A stretch of DNA of 27,912 bases from the IMG/VR virus record IMGVR_UViG_3300042908_000444, positions 1 through 27,912 of that record. One strand, given 5' to 3'. This stretch comes from a virus. Shown here one piece after another: positions 3,011 to 27,891 of this stretch. Each line of letters begins with the position of its first letter. The first letter of the stretch is position 1. Under the pieces are notes generated by a model that saw only the letters and a list, made by a program, of their open reading frames with translations, made no database searches and was not told the DNA's origin. The position numbers and the translations under genes were made by a program.

Positions 3011-3279
3011 CACATCTCGGAATGACGGTACGGCGGTTGTGTCAGGAAATGGACAGCCGGGAGTTCGCGGAGTGGATTGCGATCCACCGGCACTTCCACC
3101 CGCTCCCTGACACGTGGCGGCAGACGGGCCTTGTGGCTAGTGCGGCGCTCGCGCCGTACTGCCCGCGGGGCAGGACGCCGAAAGCGGAGGACTTTGTGCC
3201 GGTCGTGAAAGCACCACAGCACGATCTGCAGATGCAGGAAGCGTTGGAACAGTTGGCACGAGACCTGGCAGGTGAGTGA
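2968..3279 (+). CDS. Tail assembly chaperone T domain, made as G-T by -1 frameshift
   Basis: After a -1 slip at 2962-2968 translation continues CTA GCA CTC and reads on to TGA at 3277-3279, giving a 217-aa G-T fusion. The T part contains RLAAHLGMTVRRLCQEMDSR then EFAEWIAIHRHF, the hallmark of the lambda-type T extension (lgmtv..l...ms..Ef.eW.a). The ATG at 3022 falls in the middle of this conserved stretch, so an independent start there would drop part of the domain; the fusion is preferred. T is known to recruit the tube protein to the tape-measure/chaperone complex. It overlaps the tape measure start. Confidence 0.85.
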   Translation, partial: LALRPTRVFLFRLAAHLGMTVRRLCQEMDSREFAEWIAIHRHFHPLPDTWRQTGLVASAALAPYCPRGRTPKAEDFVPVVKAPQHDLQMQEALEQLARDLAGE

Positions 3280-6200
3280 TGGCAACGGTGATCGGACTCG
3301 GCGTGCAGTTCTCGGCCAATGCCAACGGCATGACCAAGGGACTGTCGCAGGTAGATCGCCAGCTTCAGAACCTCGGCAAGCAGGCCGCGGCTGCTGGCTC
3401 GCTTTTTAGCAGCTTCACAGCATCGAGTGCGGCGGCGGGTGCGGCCCAGCAGCAGGTCGCCACGGACATCGCCTTTCTCGGCAGTGCCTTCAAGACCGGG
3501 CAGATCTCCGCCCAAGAGTACGCAGCTGAGTTGCAGGCCGTCGTTGGCAGTGCCCAGACGGCTGCGGCTGCGTTTGCCGAGGGGGCACGCATCACCGAGC
3601 AGGTGGCCACGGCCGAGGAGCGGCGTACCGCCCAGCTTGAGCGGCTGGGGGAGTTGCTGGCGCAAGGTGCGATCAGTGAGCAGACATACTCACGTGCAGC
3701 GGCCGAGGCGAGCGGTGCAGCACAGGCAGCTGCTGCTGGTATCGCCAAGGCAGAGAGCGACAGGGCAAAGGCAATCGCGGAAGGCGCAGCCGTTACGGCG
3801 TCTGTACAGACTCAGCAGGAACAGCGAGAGGCTGAGCTGGCGCGCCTCGCTGGCTTGCTGCAACAGGGCGTGATCAGCGAAGAAACCTACTCGCGTGCTG
3901 TGTTTGTTACCTCCGGCGCTCACGAAGCCGCACAAAACGCTGAGGCCGCCCGTGCTCAGTTGCTGCAGGAGGGGCAGGCGATTTCGGCTCGGTATGCAAC
4001 AACAGAGGAGACCCGCGCGGCAACGATTGCCAAGCTAGATTCCCTGCTGGAAGCAGGAGCAATAACGCAAGAGACCTACATGAGGGCTTCCATTGATGCA
4101 CTCGGCATTAATGAGCAAGCCGCACAGTCAGAGGAAGAGCGTGCAAAGGCCACTGCTCGAGCAGCCCAGATCACACAGGCCAACCTCACGCCGCAGGAGA
4201 AGTACGACGCCCAGGTGCAGGAGCTTGCTGAACACTTGGCCGCCGGTCGCATCTCGCAGGACACGTACAACTCTGCGTTGAACAAGGCCGCCACGGAGTG
4301 GTCGAAAGCCACAATCGCCGCCGACAAGTTTGGCTCTTCCGTGGATGGTGCTGGCGACGGCGGCACGATGAAGTTCAACGAGTTGTCCGGCGTGCTGTCT
4401 GCACTGCCCGGCCCGATCGGCAACGTGGCGGGCCGGCTGTCGGGTCTGGCGTCTGCTGGCGAGGGACTGAGCAAGGTATTCGGCGGCGGTGCCGGGCTGT
4501 CGGGCGGGCTGGCCAACATCGGCGCAACGGTGGCCGGGCTAGTCAATCCTTTCACGATCGGCCTCGCTGCAGTGGCTGCGTTTGGTGCTGGTGCAAGTGC
4601 AGTAGCCAGCGGGCTGCTCGACCTCGAGGACCGAGTCGAGAAGCTTGGCAACACCGCCGACAAGCTCGGCGTGTCGTTTGAGTTCATCCAGACGCTCGAG
4701 GAAGCAGGCAACCGCTCTGGCGTCTCAATCGAATCAGTCAGCAGTGCATTCGGCAAACTGCAAAAAACGCTTGCTGGTGCAGACGAAGAGAGCAAGGCAG
4801 CGACGGAGGCCCTCGGCAAGCTCGGCATCTCGTTCACGGACTTGGAGAACCTCAGCCCAGAGGAACAGATCCGCCTGGTTGGCGAGCAACTACAGGGCAT
4901 CGAAGACCCGGCGAAGCGCACGGCAGCCGCTATGCAGATTTTCGGCAAGAGCGGCGCAGACCTGCTGCCATTCTTTGCAAACCTTGGGCCAGCGGCCGAC
5001 GACATCGCACGGCTCGGCGGATCGCTCACGGCGATCGATCGTGGCCGCATCGACGACTTCGGGGCTGGCATTGATGCGTTGGGCGTTGCGAGCTCGCGGC
5101 TCGGCGAGCTGCTGCTCTTGCCGTTCGTTGGCCTTGGTGAAGGCATCGCCCAAGGCTCGGCCGAGTTCCTTGGCGGCATCAACGCAATCGTCGGGCCTAT
5201 AGGAGACGTGCTTGAGCCTGCGCTTTCTAACATTGGCAGGCTCTTTGAAATTGCTGGCACAAACATAGGAACAATTGGCAGGGTTATCGGTGCTGTTCTT
5301 GAGCCTGTCGGAAAAATCTTTCAGGGTCTTGGCCAATCGCTAGAGCCGTTTTACGAAGGTATCGTTGGCTTAAACCAAGGCATTGCGGATGGAATTGTCT
5401 CTGTAGCCAAGTGGATCGTGTCGTTCTCGCCGCTGGGCGCTGTCGCCGGCAATATCGGAGCCATCGGCGAAGTTGTCTCCCGCGTGGCCAACATCATCGG
5501 CACCGCGTTATCGCAGGTCAGCGAATACGTGGGCGACGTGTTGGCATCGTGGGTTGAGTTCTTTGGGATTGAGTCTGCCATCGAATCAATCGGCGCGGTG
5601 ATCTCGTCGGTGTTCGGCGTCGTGTCGTCGACCCTTGCGACGATCGCCACCGCAGTTAGTGCCACTGTGGGGCAGCTGCTTACGATTGCCGAGGACTTCC
5701 TTGGCATCACGGCAGAGGTTGACACGACCATCACGCCAGAGCTTGATCTCTCGCAGCCCACGCTGGCTGCGGCACAGTTCGCCAAGGAGATCGGCACGGC
5801 CGCCACCGCAGCGGCTGAGTTCGGGCAAGCCGGCTTCGACGCGGCGCTGGCCTACCAGAACTCGCTCGAGCAAATCGCACAGCTGCAGGCCGACGGCACG
5901 CTGACGGCTGAAGAGGGTAAGAGGGCAGCCGAGCAGGAGAAGGCTGCGTTCGAAGCCAAGATTGAAACGCTGGACAAGGAGGCCGAGGCTCAGGCTCGCG
6001 CTGCGGAAGCTGCACAGAAGGCAGCCGACGAGAAGATCGCTGCTGCCGAGCGTGCCGCAGCTGCTGCCGTCGAGGCCGACCGCAAGCTGGCTGATGCGTT
6101 CATCACCGCCCAAGGCCTTGGCGCTGGCGACCAGGCCACGGCGGCCGACACGCTGCTTGCCATCGCGCGGCAGATCGAAGAGACGGAAGCCGCCATCGTC

Positions 6201-6800
6201 GAGGCACGTGCCGCAGGTGATGCTGCCGCCGAGCAGGCTGCGACTCGCCGCCTGGCCCTGCTCGACCAGGCGCAAGCCGCTGCACAGGAAACGGCCCAGT
6301 TCGGATTCTCGACGCAAGATGCCGATCGGGCGATCGCTTCAGTGCGAGAGAAGCTGGACGACACATTCTCGTTCGTCAACTTTGAGCTTGCCCCCGAGGC
6401 GTTCACGGCGGCCCAAGAGCAGCTGGCCCAGCTCGAGGCCGACCTCGACGCCAAGGTGATCGACCCTGAGACATTCGAACAAGCGGCCGATGCGATCCGG
6501 TCTGGCTTTGAGGATGCCCTAAAGACGGCCGAGCGTATCCAAGACCTGCAGGAGCAGTACGCGCAGCGTGTCGCCGAGATCGACGCTGAGCGTATCAATG
6601 CCCTCTCCCAGGCTTCCCAGCAGACCGTGCAGGCGACGGACTTGCGGACCAGCGAAGGCGCAAGCGAGTTCCTGCGGCTGGCCACAGGCCGTGATGATCC
6701 AGCGATTGCCGAGTACCGCAAGCAGTTGTCAGAGCTCAAGAAGATTGCCAAAGAGATCAGCAATCTTGGCGGCGTGGTCGACATCGTGGGGGCCGCATAA
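3279..6800 (+). CDS. Tail length tape measure protein
   Basis: At 1173 aa this is the longest gene in the window, placed right after the G/GT chaperones. I prefer ATG 3279 (AGGTGAG upstream) over the GTG three bases earlier. Residues about 1-350 are Ala/Glu/Gln-rich helix with repeated LxxLLxxGxISxETYxRA units. Around residues 380-450 there is a Gly/Ala-rich hydrophobic part (LVNPFTIGLAAVAAFGAGAS) and about 600-850 has long hydrophobic stretches typical of the membrane-interacting part. The C-terminal third is again charged coiled coil. No lytic domain is recognised. At roughly 0.15 nm per residue its length would imply a tail of about 170-180 nm, a family rule rather than a measurement. Confidence 0.93.
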   Translation: MATVIGLGVQFSANANGMTKGLSQVDRQLQNLGKQAAAAGSLFSSFTASSAAAGAAQQQVATDIAFLGSAFKTGQISAQEYAAELQAVVGSAQTAAAAFAEGARITEQVATAEERRTAQLERLGELLAQGAISEQTYSRAAAEASGAAQAAAAGIAKAESDRAKAIAEGAAVTASVQTQQEQREAELARLAGLLQQGVISEETYSRAVFVTSGAHEAAQNAEAARAQLLQEGQAISARYATTEETRAATIAKLDSLLEAGAITQETYMRASIDALGINEQAAQSEEERAKATARAAQITQANLTPQEKYDAQVQELAEHLAAGRISQDTYNSALNKAATEWSKATIAADKFGSSVDGAGDGGTMKFNELSGVLSALPGPIGNVAGRLSGLASAGEGLSKVFGGGAGLSGGLANIGATVAGLVNPFTIGLAAVAAFGAGASAVASGLLDLEDRVEKLGNTADKLGVSFEFIQTLEEAGNRSGVSIESVSSAFGKLQKTLAGADEESKAATEALGKLGISFTDLENLSPEEQIRLVGEQLQGIEDPAKRTAAAMQIFGKSGADLLPFFANLGPAADDIARLGGSLTAIDRGRIDDFGAGIDALGVASSRLGELLLLPFVGLGEGIAQGSAEFLGGINAIVGPIGDVLEPALSNIGRLFEIAGTNIGTIGRVIGAVLEPVGKIFQGLGQSLEPFYEGIVGLNQGIADGIVSVAKWIVSFSPLGAVAGNIGAIGEVVSRVANIIGTALSQVSEYVGDVLASWVEFFGIESAIESIGAVISSVFGVVSSTLATIATAVSATVGQLLTIAEDFLGITAEVDTTITPELDLSQPTLAAAQFAKEIGTAATAAAEFGQAGFDAALAYQNSLEQIAQLQADGTLTAEEGKRAAEQEKAAFEAKIETLDKEAEAQARAAEAAQKAADEKIAAAERAAAAAVEADRKLADAFITAQGLGAGDQATAADTLLAIARQIEETEAAIVEARAAGDAAAEQAATRRLALLDQAQAAAQETAQFGFSTQDADRAIASVREKLDDTFSFVNFELAPEAFTAAQEQLAQLEADLDAKVIDPETFEQAADAIRSGFEDALKTAERIQDLQEQYAQRVAEIDAERINALSQASQQTVQATDLRTSEGASEFLRLATGRDDPAIAEYRKQLSELKKIAKEISNLGGVVDIVGAA
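3478..4290 (+). repeat. Degenerate internal repeats in the tape measure gene (SHOCT-like units)
   Basis: Five diverged copies of a short helix-turn-helix unit begin near 3478, 3645, 3846, 4040 and 4228. Representative cores are LLAQGAISEQTYSRA, LLQQGVISEETYSRA, LLEAGAITQETYMRA and LAAGRISQDTYNSA. Spacing is about 167-201 nt (56-67 codons). The pattern L..L...G.It..ey resembles the SHOCT motif seen at protein ends and in some tape measure proteins. Two weaker copies occur near 5890 and 6450. The copies are conserved in protein rather than in DNA, so this is old duplication. Confidence 0.7.
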
Positions 6801-15109: not shown

Positions 15110-16030
15110 TCACGCGGCTGGCGGCTCGTGCGGCCTGTCGAGATCCGGCAGGTAGTCGAGGTTAGATTCCCGCCCGGTGATCTCCTCGTCGTAGTAGTGG
15201 TTCTCGGCCATCTCCTCGCTGCTGTGCCCCAGCTGCTTCCTGGCCGAGATCCCAGCCCGCTTGAGGTAGCTGGCCGTGGATTTGCGGATGGCGTGAAACG
15301 GCTTGTAGTCCACGCCAGCCACCCGGCAGAGCACCCGCAGGCTGTTGTAGGCGGACAGCGGCTCCCGGTCGTCCAGCCAAGGCCATACGCGAGCCTCTGG
15401 CGGGCCTTTCTGGGTCGCCAGCATTCGAGCCAGTTCCGGCGTGATCGGCCGTGTAATCGTCTCTCGGTGCCCCTTACGGGTGGCAGCCAGGAACGTGAGC
15501 GTGTTCCGCTCGAGGTCGACCTCAGACCAGCGGATCTGCAGGATGGCACCGATCCTCTCGCCGGTCTGGAACATGGCCATGATTTTGGTCGGCCAGTACC
15601 AGGCCGCCGGCTTGCCCGAGACCAGTCCCTTCCGCCGTCGGCCAACCTCGACCAGCTTGGCGAGCTCCTCGGCCTTGTAGGCCTTCGGCACGGGCCGCGG
15701 GACCTTCGGCCTGGCGTAGTCGGGGAACTCCACCATTTCGCCGTCTGACCGCTTCCAGCGCTTTCGGGCCAGCCAGTTCCACAGCGTGCGGATGTGAGCC
15801 GAGTCCTTGGCCAAGCTGGCCGGGCTGATCAATTTCCACTTGGAATGCTGGGTGACACGCCGCCACCGCAGAAACTTGGCGATGGTCAGGTCGTCCAGGT
15901 CGTCCACCGTGGGCTCCCGGCCCAGGAAATCCCGCAGGCGGGCCAGCGTAGCCACGTACATTGCCACCGTCCGGTCGCACAGGTCCTTGTGTGGGGCAAA
16001 TCGGTCGATCAACAGGTCTTTCAGCTGCAT
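15110..16030 (-). CDS. int: Tyrosine site-specific recombinase (integrase)
   Basis: The product is 306 aa from ATG 16030, chosen because GAGGAG (16038-16043) sits at ideal distance; a longer frame to 16102 would read through the promoter and inverted repeats. Residues 1-95 form the core-binding SAM-like domain (TVAMYVATLARLRDFLG, LTIAKFLRWRRVT). The catalytic domain has R159 (TGERIGAIL), K186 (TRKGH), H246 and R249 (FHAIRKSTASYL), H269 (LGHSS) and nucleophile Y279 or Y280 (ENHYYD). All catalytic residues are present, so it should be active. No separate arm-binding domain is obvious. It is transcribed opposite to the excisionase-like gene, with a divergent control region between them. Confidence 0.93.
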   Translation of the reverse strand: MQLKDLLIDRFAPHKDLCDRTVAMYVATLARLRDFLGREPTVDDLDDLTIAKFLRWRRVTQHSKWKLISPASLAKDSAHIRTLWNWLARKRWKRSDGEMVEFPDYARPKVPRPVPKAYKAEELAKLVEVGRRRKGLVSGKPAAWYWPTKIMAMFQTGERIGAILQIRWSEVDLERNTLTFLAATRKGHRETITRPITPELARMLATQKGPPEARVWPWLDDREPLSAYNSLRVLCRVAGVDYKPFHAIRKSTASYLKRAGISARKQLGHSSEEMAENHYYDEEITGRESNLDYLPDLDRPHEPPAA

Positions 16031-16054
16031 CTTCGCTCTCCTCTTTGGTGTTTG

Positions 16055-16122
16055 AGGGGCGATCCTAGCGGATAGTGTACAGTTGTTCAAACTGCACCCC
16101 ATCCGCTAGAACAATCGCCCCT
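16055..16122. repeat. Long interrupted inverted repeat upstream of the integrase
   Basis: Two nested perfect arms are visible. AGGGGCGAT (16055-16063) pairs with ATCGCCCCT (16114-16122), and CTAGCGGAT (16065-16073) pairs with ATCCGCTAG (16101-16109). The arms flank the predicted integrase promoter and one copy of a 12-bp direct repeat. The symmetry suggests regulator binding or looping, or a recombination site beside the integrase. As RNA or cruciform it would form an 18-bp stem with small internal loops. Confidence 0.75.
16062..16090 (-). promoter_or_regulatory. Predicted integrase promoter
   Basis: On the minus strand, TTGAAC (16085-16090) and TAGGAT (16062-16067) are separated by 17 bases, a good sigma70-type match. 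Transcription would begin near 16055, giving a short leader containing GAGGAG before the integrase ATG at 16030. The -10 element lies inside the left arms of the inverted repeat, so binding there would control integrase expression. Confidence 0.6.
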
Positions 16123-25094: not shown

Positions 25095-25466
25095 ATGGTC
25101 GCCGACGCTCCTATTGCCGCCGCTCGCCCGTTCGCGGACATCGCCGACAAGGTCACGGCGTTTCTCGTGACGGCACGAGTCTCGGCCCGCGACGGGCTGA
25201 CGTGGATGGAGTTCGGTGCTCTCGTCGCCGCACTTGTGCGGCTGTCAGTGGAGACGCTCGACGCAACCAAGACTCTGACAGGCGACGAGAAGCGAGCGAT
25301 CGTGCTGGAGGCTGTCGGCGTGCTGTTTGACTCGCTCGCCGTGCTGTGCGTGCCGTACGCAACGTATCCGTTTTGGTTCATTGTCCGCCCAGCAGCTCGA
25401 GCACTGGTCGTCGCCATTGCTGCCGGGACCATCGAAACAATTCTGCCACTCGTGAGGAAGTCGTGA
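25095..25466 (+). CDS. Membrane-associated protein of the lysis region (123 aa)
   Basis: ATG 25095 lies three bases after the previous stop (TAGGTATG). The product has an amphipathic first half (MEFGALVAALVRLSVETLDA), the charged KTLTGDEKRAI segment and a hydrophobic C-terminal half (VLFDSLAVLCVPYATYPFWF, then ARALVVAIAAGTIETILPLV) with one or two likely membrane helices. No named family is recognised. Placement before a membrane-anchored peptidase and other small membrane proteins suggests a holin or other lysis accessory, which is inference from neighbours. Confidence 0.55.
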   Translation: MVADAPIAAARPFADIADKVTAFLVTARVSARDGLTWMEFGALVAALVRLSVETLDATKTLTGDEKRAIVLEAVGVLFDSLAVLCVPYATYPFWFIVRPAARALVVAIAAGTIETILPLVRKS

Positions 25467-26017
25467 TCACAGCGTTATTGGTGGCGTTCGCCGTCTACGT
25501 GCTCGCGGGCCAGCAGATCACCGAGCGGGTGAAGACGTGGTATGCCACGGCCAAGGTGCCGACTATCGACGGCAAATACGTCGCCGTTGTGGCGTTGCTC
25601 GTCGCTGCGGTGATTGCGTTCGCACCCAGCCGGCAGGCACCAGCACCAGGCCCGGCACCGCTGCCGCCGGATGCGTTCTCGCTCCGGGGAAAGTTCATTG
25701 GGCCGACTGCGGCGGCTGATGCTTCGACCATGTCAGCGCTGTGCGGCGAGCTCGCTGATTGCATCGAGTACGACGGGAAGCACGACCAGAGACTCAAAAC
25801 AGGCGTGGCGTTCGACGATCTGCGTATCGCAGCACGCGATATGCGATGCCGTGGCGAGAGCATCGGTGCTCGGCAGCCGGCAGTCCGGGATGCCGTTCAC
25901 AAGTTCTTGGACGACGCCGTCGGCTCGTCTGGCGGGCCTGTGACGCCCGAGAGCCGTGCCGCGTGGGTGTCGGCACTTCGTGACCTGTCGAGGGCTGCAG
26001 CCGATGTCACGCGCTGA
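25463..26017 (+). CDS. Membrane protein with two N-terminal spans and helical tail (184 aa)
   Basis: GTG 25463 overlaps the previous stop (GTGA) and has GAGGAAG upstream. Residues 1-15 (MITALLVAFAVYVLA) and about 39-52 (YVAVVALLVAAVIAF) are hydrophobic helices joined by a short loop. A Pro/Ala-rich hinge (APAPGPAPLPPD) then leads to a soluble helical domain with two cysteines (ALCGELADCIEYDGKHDQ). Length and topology are compatible with a holin-like or spanin-like component, but no family match is obvious. It overlaps the peptidase gene by 14 bases, indicating coordinated translation. Confidence 0.55.
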   Translation: MITALLVAFAVYVLAGQQITERVKTWYATAKVPTIDGKYVAVVALLVAAVIAFAPSRQAPAPGPAPLPPDAFSLRGKFIGPTAAADASTMSALCGELADCIEYDGKHDQRLKTGVAFDDLRIAARDMRCRGESIGARQPAVRDAVHKFLDDAVGSSGGPVTPESRAAWVSALRDLSRAAADVTR

Positions 26018-27137
26018 TCGCTGGTCACTGTCTGCCGTCGCCTTCGTGATCGTGATGGCGATCCTTGGGGCACTCGTGGAGCGTGCCACGCACAGAGTCG
26101 CCGCACGCATTAACGGGCAGTTTGGCTACACGCCCGACCCGGCAGGGACAAAGGCGTTCTTGGCCGAGCTCGAACAGCCGCTCTTCTCTGACGCTGCCAA
26201 GGATGTGATCAAGAACGCCAAGGGGCAGGACACGTTCCTCTATCGCTTCGCAGATCGTGCTCACCGCCAGGTCTACGGCAAGCCGTTTGGCCCGTGGCGG
26301 CAGGGCATAGGCGACTGCGTCTCGTTTGGATGGGCGATGGGCTCGTATGTCGGCCAGTGCGTTGACTGGGCCGAGGGCGAATTGCCTGAGCCACCCAAGC
26401 TTGTGGCCACCGAGCCGCTGTACTCCGGCTCGAGGACAGCCGGCAGGCTTCCCCCTGTCGCACAGGCTGGCTACAGCGACGGGAGCTACGGCGGTGCAGC
26501 TGCACGGTGGGTGGCTGGCAAGTGCAAAGACCCGACGGTCGGCGGCATCCTCTTCCGCCAGCAGTACCCCGGTGCCGACCTGACTGCCTACAGCGCGCAG
26601 CGGGCGAAGGAGTGGGGCAACCTATTGTGCGGCGGTGGGCAAGTGGGAACTTCCCTTGCCAAGCTCGCCAACAAGAACACGGCGACAAACGTCGCCCTGG
26701 TGCGGAACTTCGACGAGGCGGCTGCCAGCATCGAAAGCGGTTACTGCGTGCCGGTGTGCAGCGGTGTTGGCTTCTCGTCGCAGCGCGACGCCGACGGCTT
26801 CGCACCTCGCAGCGGCTCGTGGGCACACTGCATGTGCTTCATTGCCGTCAGGTACGCCAAGAACGAGGGCAAGCGAGACGGGCTGCTGTGCATGAACTCG
26901 TGGGGCGTCTTCAACGCCGGGCCGAAATGGCCAGCAGATCAGCCCGACGGCTCTTTCTGGGTGGATCGCCAGACGGTCGACGCGATGCTCTCGGGGCAAG
27001 ACTCGTTCAGTATCAGCGGCGTGAACTTCCGCTACCGCAATCTGGATCACGGCAACTGGCTGCAACCTGTACCGCCCGAGGCTCGCAAGCCGTCGCCCGC
27101 TCGACTCATCGCAGACACTTTCCACATCGCACAATAG
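26004..27137 (+). CDS. Membrane-anchored papain-like cysteine peptidase (candidate lysis enzyme)
   Basis: The 377-aa product starts with an uncleaved-signal-like helix (LSAVAFVIVMAILGALV, residues 9-25). The peptidase C1 core is clear: RQGIGDCVSFGW with Q100 (oxyanion hole) and nucleophile C105, SWAHCMCF with H275, and MNSWG with N298. The Q..C spacing, the His and the NSWG motif are those of papain. The N-terminal anchor would place the enzyme outside the cytoplasmic membrane. Small membrane-protein genes lie on both sides. I infer a proteolytic lysin or envelope-processing enzyme. Alternatives are virion protein maturation or cleavage of a host surface protein. No inhibitory propeptide is recognised. 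Confidence 0.85.
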   Translation: MSRADRWSLSAVAFVIVMAILGALVERATHRVAARINGQFGYTPDPAGTKAFLAELEQPLFSDAAKDVIKNAKGQDTFLYRFADRAHRQVYGKPFGPWRQGIGDCVSFGWAMGSYVGQCVDWAEGELPEPPKLVATEPLYSGSRTAGRLPPVAQAGYSDGSYGGAAARWVAGKCKDPTVGGILFRQQYPGADLTAYSAQRAKEWGNLLCGGGQVGTSLAKLANKNTATNVALVRNFDEAAASIESGYCVPVCSGVGFSSQRDADGFAPRSGSWAHCMCFIAVRYAKNEGKRDGLLCMNSWGVFNAGPKWPADQPDGSFWVDRQTVDAMLSGQDSFSISGVNFRYRNLDHGNWLQPVPPEARKPSPARLIADTFHIAQ

Positions 27138-27146
27138 GAGACGCCC

Positions 27147-27374
27147 ATGGGCTTGTTGTTGTGGCTTGTATTCGGTGCCATCGTTGGCGGCGTCGCTAAG
27201 TGGCTGATGCCGGGCAAGTGCCCCGAGGGCTGGGTGCCAACGATTGGCCTCGGCCTCATCGGTTCTCTCGCAGGCGGCCTGCCGTTCGGTAATGGCCCTG
27301 CTGGGCTCATCGGCAGCGTGATCGGTGCGTGTGTCGTGATGTACGTGTACTCGATCTGGAGTGACGACCGATGA
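27147..27374 (+). CDS. Transglycosylase-associated (GlsB/YeaQ/YmgE-type) small membrane protein
   Basis: ATG 27147 follows AGGAGA. The 75-aa product starts MGLLLWLVFGAIVGGVAKWL and has two further hydrophobic stretches (TIGLGLIGSLAGGLPFG and GLIGSVIGACVVMYVYSIW), three helices with the Gly-rich pattern of the Transgly_assoc family. Despite the name these proteins have no proven transglycosylase activity. Three helices in about 75 residues directly after the peptidase make it a good holin candidate. It overlaps the next gene by four bases. Confidence 0.8.
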   Translation: MGLLLWLVFGAIVGGVAKWLMPGKCPEGWVPTIGLGLIGSLAGGLPFGNGPAGLIGSVIGACVVMYVYSIWSDDR

Positions 27375-27637
27375 CCAAGCGTGAGATCCAGACAGCCGTG
27401 GTCGTGGGCCTGGTGGCCGTGATGCTCACATGGTGGGCCGCCACGAACGATTACTCGCCGATCAAGCCACAGCCAGAGCCGCAGCGGCCCGTCCTGCGTC
27501 TGCTGGCTAGGCTGGCCAAGGCTGGCCTATGGGTGATGATGTTTGCCGAGCCTGCACCTGCTGAGCAGGCGTATGTAGTCCACGCTCGGGTCGATGCTGA
27601 TGGGCACCGAGTAATCAATCACGGGCAAGGATGGTAA
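27371..27637 (+). CDS. Small membrane protein of the lysis region (88 aa)
   Basis: ATG 27371 overlaps the previous stop (ATGA). The N-terminus MTKREIQTAVVVGLVAVMLT holds one membrane helix, continuing into a WWAATNDYSPIKPQPEPQRP linker. A second hydrophobic stretch (LAKAGLWVMMFAEPAPAEQA) and a soluble tail (VVHARVDADGHRVINHGQGW) follow. The two-helix topology suggests another lysis accessory, perhaps spanin-like; no family is identified. Confidence 0.6.
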   Translation: MTKREIQTAVVVGLVAVMLTWWAATNDYSPIKPQPEPQRPVLRLLARLAKAGLWVMMFAEPAPAEQAYVVHARVDADGHRVINHGQGW

Positions 27638-27639
27638 CC

Positions 27640-27891
27640 ATGTGGCAGTACATCCTCTCAGTGCTCGCCGCCCTGTCGGCTGACCCTGCACAGATCGACC
27701 TCGAGGCCCCTAGAGCCTCGGCTGCGGTGTCTGCGGCATATGCGACAACTGCACCAGAAAGGGCTCCAGAGCCCACACCAGAGCCGCCCAAGCCCAAGCC
27801 CGCCGTGTGCGTGGACTGTGGCGGCAAAGGCTACATCGTTCACGGTGATGGCCACAGGACGGTCTGCCCTACGTGTGCGGTGAAGAAGTAG
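27640..27891 (+). CDS. Exported or anchored protein with DnaJ-type zinc ribbon (83 aa)
   Basis: ATG 27640 is better spaced from AAGG than the in-frame ATG 27631. The N-terminus MWQYILSVLAALSADP looks like a short signal or anchor helix, followed by an Ala/Pro-rich linker (PERAPEPTPEPPKPKP). The C-terminus has CVDCGGKGYIVHGDGHRTVC and a final CPTC, the CxxCxGxG pattern of the DnaJ cysteine-rich zinc domain in one half-unit. An anchored zinc knuckle at the envelope is unusual. It may help fold or hold cysteine-containing envelope proteins. Function is not known. Confidence 0.62.
   Translation: MWQYILSVLAALSADPAQIDLEAPRASAAVSAAYATTAPERAPEPTPEPPKPKPAVCVDCGGKGYIVHGDGHRTVCPTCAVKK

Follow-up and report, generated by a model that had tools for sequence, protein, structure and literature searches.

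Uncultured phages may burst their hosts with a papain-fold peptidase in place of the usual lysin

Nearly all enzymes with which phages lyse their hosts are peptidoglycan hydrolases. Papain-like folds are known among virus lysins, namely, in the CHAP endolysins and the C71 pseudomurein endoisopeptidases PeiW and PeiP (PMC10318531), and the N5 domain of mycobacteriophage LysA is a further papain-like lysin domain (PMC6116114). Since these other families exist, the combination of a papain fold and lysis is not unprecedented in itself. As for the envelopes of planctomycetes, the older literature describes an outer membrane and a protein wall that resists SDS (PMC3422733), and Planctopirus limnophila possesses DAP-containing peptidoglycan sacculi that are disintegrated by lysozyme (PMC4432640).

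The peptidase analyzed here is encoded in a 27,912-base fragment from IMG/VR (the window), which is the entire record; the question of other lysins was therefore put to complete relatives. The open reading frame (ORF) (26004-27137, plus strand) encodes 377 amino acids and is proposed, from its residues, predicted fold, and homologues, to be a membrane-anchored lysis enzyme of the papain/C1A fold. Its one hydrophobic segment, at about residues 9 to 27 (26028-26084), is a putative N-terminal signal anchor or transmembrane segment and forms part of a helix covering residues 9 to 38 in the structural model. Sequence and alignment identified the oxyanion-hole glutamine Q100 (codon 26301-26303), the catalytic cysteine C105 (26316-26318), the catalytic histidine H275 (26826-26828), and, within an NSW motif, the catalytic asparagine N298 (26895-26897), all on the plus strand; this Gln-Cys-His-Asn set stands in papain order. 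The sequence-only reading had described a membrane-anchored ORF with these four residues intact, and each was found at the position given. All four are invariant in an alignment of 30 diverse homologues (32 to 86% identity), which, together with at least 572 matching IMG/VR stretches, indicates a real conserved enzyme and excludes a chance ORF. The window also contains a siphophage tail module with a tape measure gene (3276-6800) and genes for an exonuclease, a Sak4-like annealing protein, a methyltransferase, and RusA. An integrase gene on the opposite strand (15110-16099, minus strand) suggests a temperate phage.

The earlier assignment of the protein to the C1 type was borne out by the predicted structure only and not by Pfam, PHROGs, or PDB sequence searches. 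The peptidase matched no Pfam family at an E value of ≤1, including CHAP, NlpC/P60, and peptidoglycan-binding domains; PHROGs and PDB sequence searches returned nothing useful, and there was no match to PF00112. An AlphaFold2 model built on the 30-sequence alignment had a pLDDT of 90 and a pTM of 0.83 (an earlier alignment of 14 close homologues gave a pLDDT of 48 and was set aside). Comparison of this model with Foldseek and VIA-align placed it in the papain/C1A group, the best match being xylellain (3ois), with a Z score of 21.5 across 244 residues at 18% identity. Papain, procathepsins, and Cwp84 (4ci7 and 4d59) followed with Z scores of 17 to 19, that of Cwp84 being about 17. Going by the model, fold and active site are those of the C1A enzymes, but the sequence does not match Pfam PF00112, and the peptidase thus lies outside that family as defined. 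CHAP and NlpC/P60 structures were absent from the best fold matches, a distant relation to them being conceivable. The structural matches to proenzymes reach back to about model residue 30, indicating that the stretch following the anchor overlies a propeptide-like region, and the peptidase may be subject to zymogen control.

The best 80 of the 572 IMG/VR matches share 58 to 95% identity with the peptidase, and further scans retrieved relatives at 40 to 50% identity, some of them in genomes of 82 to 163 kb. GenBank phages (50,697 records) contained no convincing match, the two weak partial ones having E values of ≥0.2, and among phage-like records a single named one, the plasmid pPLIM01, has a relative, PLIM_RS21800. 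The open-licence literature contained no report of this peptidase or of the pPLIM01 phage lysing its host. For the study of protein forms and neighborhoods, we used 57 loci, nonredundant at 90%. When the 57 representatives were sorted with a simple hydrophobicity criterion, 36 had an N-terminal anchor, 2 had an anchor and a possible lipobox (clear in L177 and doubtful in L166), 1 had an RR motif ahead of the anchor, and 18, mostly from large phages, scored as leaderless. L148, scored as leaderless, begins with a Tat-like RR motif, and the start of L132 is uncertain. Endolysins likewise occur as signal-arrest-release (SAR), signal-peptide, or holin-dependent forms, and we counted the alternation of anchored, lipoprotein-like, and leaderless homologues in favor of a role in lysis. 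The homologue at L169 (6669-8720; 683 amino acids) carries an intein directly ahead of the catalytic cysteine, inserted between Asp and Cys (GD, then the intein ending in HN, then CVSMG); it matched Pfam Intein_splicing with an E value of 2e-7, slightly below the family cut-off, and its LAGLIDADG signal was weak. Active-site intein insertions are typically seen in important proteins, and this one was likewise counted for the lysis role. At L067 (G010:C1:16518-17647), the gene is split by an in-frame TGA into two pieces, which may reflect an error of sequencing or decay of this copy. Two Mucilaginibacter chromosomes contain leaderless stand-alone homologues that are about 40% identical (L114:9974-10888 and L115:10049-10975); no prophage is obvious around them and the upstream genes are the same in both, as if the copies had been adopted by the host.

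The peptidase gene is surrounded by genes for small membrane proteins, present on both sides in the window as previously noted, and most of the 57 loci conserve this cassette. All of its members in the window are on the plus strand. Upstream lies family S2 (25095-25466; 123 amino acids), a holin-like candidate so labeled because of its size, transmembrane segments, and position; two homologues of this protein had no PHROG or Pfam holin match. At 37 of the 57 loci, a relative of S2, mostly with 2 or 3 predicted transmembrane segments, lies two or three genes ahead of the peptidase. It is followed by the partner family S1 (25463-26017; 184 amino acids), which has two transmembrane segments and a soluble domain and overlaps the peptidase start by 14 nucleotides; S1 relatives (1 or 2 transmembrane segments plus a soluble domain) were present at 39 of the 57 loci, in 37 of them directly upstream of the peptidase. 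A comparable protein, S13, was found in nine large phages, and pPLIM01 has a transmembrane protein in the same place. Downstream of the peptidase are S5 (27147-27374; 75 amino acids, glycine-rich, 2 or 3 transmembrane segments; 22/57 loci), S3 (27371-27637; 88 amino acids, a single transmembrane segment; 36/57 loci), and S4 (27631-27891; 86 amino acids, with a hydrophobic N terminus and the pattern CxxCxGxG...HGDGH...CxxC; 31/57 loci). S5 resembles Transgly_assoc, a homologue matching PF04226 with an E value of 7e-5 and 23.4 bits, below the Pfam cut-off of 25.3. In large phages, the gene 3' of the peptidase encodes an exported thioredoxin-like protein (PF00085, E values down to 7e-9) fused to a related CxCxGxG...H.DGH motif; such genes, with CxCxGxG...HGDGH, are located at L149:5170-5904, L155:4426-5124, L165:2488-3072, and L169:8720-9382.

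The cassette moves as a unit. Its members stay together, but the block was seen in at least four different settings: (i) upstream of TerS-TerL; (ii) between the exonuclease side and F3/F5; (iii) flanked by an S78-like protease gene and the capsid gene, in 6 of the 57 loci; and (iv) adjoining ribonucleotide-reductase-like genes in large phages. The S78 and capsid genes in (iii) and the context in (iv) were assigned by inspection. The six capsid-module cassettes (L131, L173, L191, L195, L079, and L144) occupy an unusual site for a lysis module. A glycosyltransferase-like gene (weak match to PF13704; 23862-24758) lies just 5' of the cassette in the window and is kept in relatives whose cassette precedes TerS-TerL. 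Judged by its position, the cassette is probably expressed late.

The plasmid pPLIM01 (NC_014149.1; locus L208) is a complete circular plasmid of Planctopirus limnophila. It encodes a terminase, a portal protein, a ClpP-type protease, capsid, tape measure, and tail proteins, integrases, and ParB, and we consider it a phage-plasmid because head, tail, terminase, and integrase genes occur together with ParB. Its peptidase, PLIM_RS21800 (WP_013112484.1), is 23 to 27% identical to the window-type proteins over about 300 residues and stands in the order transmembrane protein, C1 peptidase, transmembrane protein, HNH, TerS, and TerL. Two relatives differ at this place. The order in G037 is a protein with 2 transmembrane segments, one with a single segment, an M23 protein (266 amino acids), HNH, a doubtful 102-amino-acid ORF, TerS, and TerL, and that in G032 (locus L215) is a protein with 3 transmembrane segments, a 73-amino-acid protein, an M23 protein (217 amino acids), HNH, TerS, and TerL. 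The HNH-TerS-TerL block is homologous in the three, with identities to pPLIM01 of 43% for TerL, 33 to 37% for TerS, and 27 to 42% for HNH. M23 is a family of peptidoglycan endopeptidases. Judged from this gene order, the C1 peptidase occupies the slot of its relatives' canonical M23 lysin, and no other single observation argues as strongly for a function in lysis. The same plasmid bears on the host. G001 and G014, which are closely related to the window phage, have TerS, TerL (39%), portal, connector, and tail genes in common with pPLIM01, from which we infer a planctomycete host; the host proposed in the sequence-only reading is thus supported indirectly, through these shared genes and the homologue in pPLIM01.

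The same reading had seen no lysin of the usual types, and scans of window proteins of this 27.9-kb fragment against Pfam and PHROGs likewise returned no lysin family among those proteins scanned. We then counted matches to lysozyme, Amidase_2, SLT, M23, and M15_3, which were found in none of 25 peptidase-bearing records. In TerL-matched controls, searched for four of the five families, 5 of 25 records had matches and 20 had none. For these four families, the contrast was 0/25 versus 5/25 over all records (P = 0.025) and 0/23 versus 4/8 among records of at least 35 kb (Fisher's P = 0.002), with both values uncorrected for lineage relatedness and the 35-kb cut chosen after the counts; one control match (G034) lies in a long frame of 533 amino acids and may be a tail protein. 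The five-family counts alone were judged weak because the TerL-matched controls were also poor in two families, and full Pfam scans of complete genomes and a control were therefore added. Complete genomes with the peptidase are G005 (45 kb) and G006 (42 kb), taken as complete because of their end repeats, and pPLIM01. Their scans, for G005 among the best 25 of 27 families, detected no canonical lysin, although diverged hydrolases could escape Pfam, so that the proposed check for an endolysin elsewhere in the genome found none in three complete relatives. A parallel scan of two control phages, with related TerL and no C1 peptidase, found Peptidase_M23 and Peptidase_M15_3, indicating that the method is able to see lysins. 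The scan of the 162-kb genome G017 covers the best 25 of its 48 families. Each of the three complete genomes also has its own prohead protease, which is of the S78 type in G005 and G006 and of the ClpP type in pPLIM01.

Based on the active-site residues, the predicted fold, the cassette, the slot, and complete genomes in which a canonical lysin was not detected, we consider it probable that the papain-fold peptidase is a host-lysis enzyme in the role of an endolysin, and a widespread group of uncultured phages may burst its hosts with a protease in place of the usual lysin. The support is circumstantial and we grade it as strong. Several observations count against this role: diverged peptidoglycan hydrolases could evade Pfam, and most of the TerL-matched controls also lacked the families searched; six cassettes lie between S78-like protease and capsid genes; leaderless stand-alone copies exist in Mucilaginibacter; the holin-like partner is without database support; and, because planctomycetes have peptidoglycan, a pure protein protease would need help. 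According to the mechanism that we propose, a compact mobile lysis cassette would supply the peptidase. In the window phage, the N-terminal signal anchor would hold it in the inner membrane, probably facing the periplasm, whereas leaderless homologues of large phages would be released by a holin. The enzyme would then cut an amide bond in the envelope, and this cleavage would lead to the bursting of the cell; the target would be either envelope proteins, cross-linked ones or those that serve as anchors, or the peptide moiety of peptidoglycan.

The sequence-only reading had gone further and proposed a proteolytic lysin acting on a planctomycete envelope rich in cysteine-containing protein. Its lysis part is well supported by position, cassette, M23 replacement, and the absence of canonical lysins from complete relatives; digestion of envelope protein specifically is not. 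As to the envelope, the SDS-resistant protein wall (PMC3422733) agrees with the proposal, but lysozyme-sensitive peptidoglycan is also present (PMC4432640), so that the peptidase could equally cut peptidoglycan peptides. Proteolytic lysis through envelope protein is plausible; the protease might dissolve that protein or free it from its anchorage, with help from the thiol-active partners. In its most elaborate form, a guild of phages of planctomycetes, and probably of other hosts, would digest envelope protein with the C1A protease and the exported thioredoxin-like/CxCxGxG partner and use no peptidoglycan hydrolase, the partner keeping the protease reduced and/or opening thiol cross-links of the protein wall. 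We regard this as rather unlikely. Within the lysis reading, and overlapping with it in probability, the enzyme might instead be a papain-fold endolysin that cuts DAP stem peptides or cross-links. The DAP peptidoglycan of P. limnophila (PMC4432640), the papain-like folds of known lysins (PMC10318531 and PMC6116114), and the M23 protein in the same slot of relatives favor this idea, but the closest structural matches (xylellain, cathepsins, and the S-layer protease Cwp84) are endopeptidases of proteins, and Pfam detected neither a CHAP or NlpC/P60 profile nor a recognizable peptidoglycan-binding domain; we hold it as a tentative possibility. Alternatively, the peptidase could be an accessory that opens the outer membrane or protein layer, in the manner of a spanin or LysB, while an unrecognized peptidoglycan hydrolase does the main work. 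An envelope with an outer membrane and SDS-resistant protein wall (PMC3422733) as well as peptidoglycan (PMC4432640) would suit such a factor, and the exported thioredoxin-like and CxCxGxG partners suggest an attack on thiol-containing protein. Against this, Pfam scanning revealed no peptidoglycan hydrolase in G005 (best 25 of 27 families), G006, or pPLIM01, and we regard such an accessory role as unlikely.

Roles outside lysis fit the loci less well. Proteases commonly serve phage head maturation, and the six cassettes between S78-like protease and capsid genes would be in keeping with a virion-maturation or structural processing protease. Each of these six loci, however, keeps a separate S78-like gene, so that the check for homologues in capsid modules turned up a minority with its own processing enzyme. 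The three complete genomes have their S78 or ClpP-type prohead proteases, the cassette is common to unrelated head modules (Phage_portal/Phage_capsid in G005; a lambda-type portal and gpA terminase in G006), and the peptidase is membrane anchored and moves with membrane proteins. On the grounds of the separate prohead proteases and unrelated head modules, we rejected a capsid-maturation protease, a virion role being highly improbable. Hardly more probable is a cassette for lysogenic conversion or superinfection exclusion by which the host surface is remodeled: the integrase of the window phage, the maintenance of pPLIM01 as a plasmid, and the mobile, membrane-bound nature of the cassette are consistent with it, but phages of up to 163 kb that have ribonucleotide-reductase-like genes carry the cassette too, as do all of the complete genomes examined to which it led, further lysis genes are not to be seen, and relatives have an M23 lysin in the slot.

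If the lysis role is correct, a cathepsin-like protease as the lysis enzyme of a large phage group would represent a new lysis chemistry and would account for the absence of a recognizable endolysin in these genomes. With the enzyme, planctomycete cells could also be opened, and one could test how far their envelopes continue to rely on protein, which has been under debate ever since a proteinaceous wall was proposed and planctomycete peptidoglycan was later discovered. The idea of an altogether new lysis strategy has to be narrowed, since papain-like lysins are known (PMC10318531 and PMC6116114); as far as our searches show, what appears to be new is a lysis enzyme of the C1A type in phages where no peptidoglycan hydrolase can be seen.

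Among described proteins, xylellain (3ois) and the papain/cathepsin C1A enzymes share with the peptidase the fold, over about 244 residues, and the Gln-Cys-His-Asn site; unlike them, it is phage encoded, membrane anchored, and part of a lysis-type cassette. Cwp84, which is associated with the S-layer of Clostridioides difficile, has the same C1A fold and acts on surface-layer protein, but it is a processing enzyme of the cell itself and not of phage lysis. The pPLIM01 protein PLIM_RS21800, annotated as a hypothetical protein, occupies the same place upstream of TerS-TerL, and its flanking partners differ in sequence. SAR endolysins such as HP1 Lys (PMC7312051) have an N-terminal anchor on a lytic enzyme encoded beside small membrane proteins, an arrangement resembling that of the candidate lysis enzyme here; HP1 Lys is a muramidase, whereas the present enzyme is a papain-fold peptidase with an anchor segment recognized from its sequence. 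The CHAP, C71, and LysA N5 lysins belong to other families and cut peptidoglycan or pseudomurein, whereas the peptidase described here resembles the C1A protein endopeptidases.
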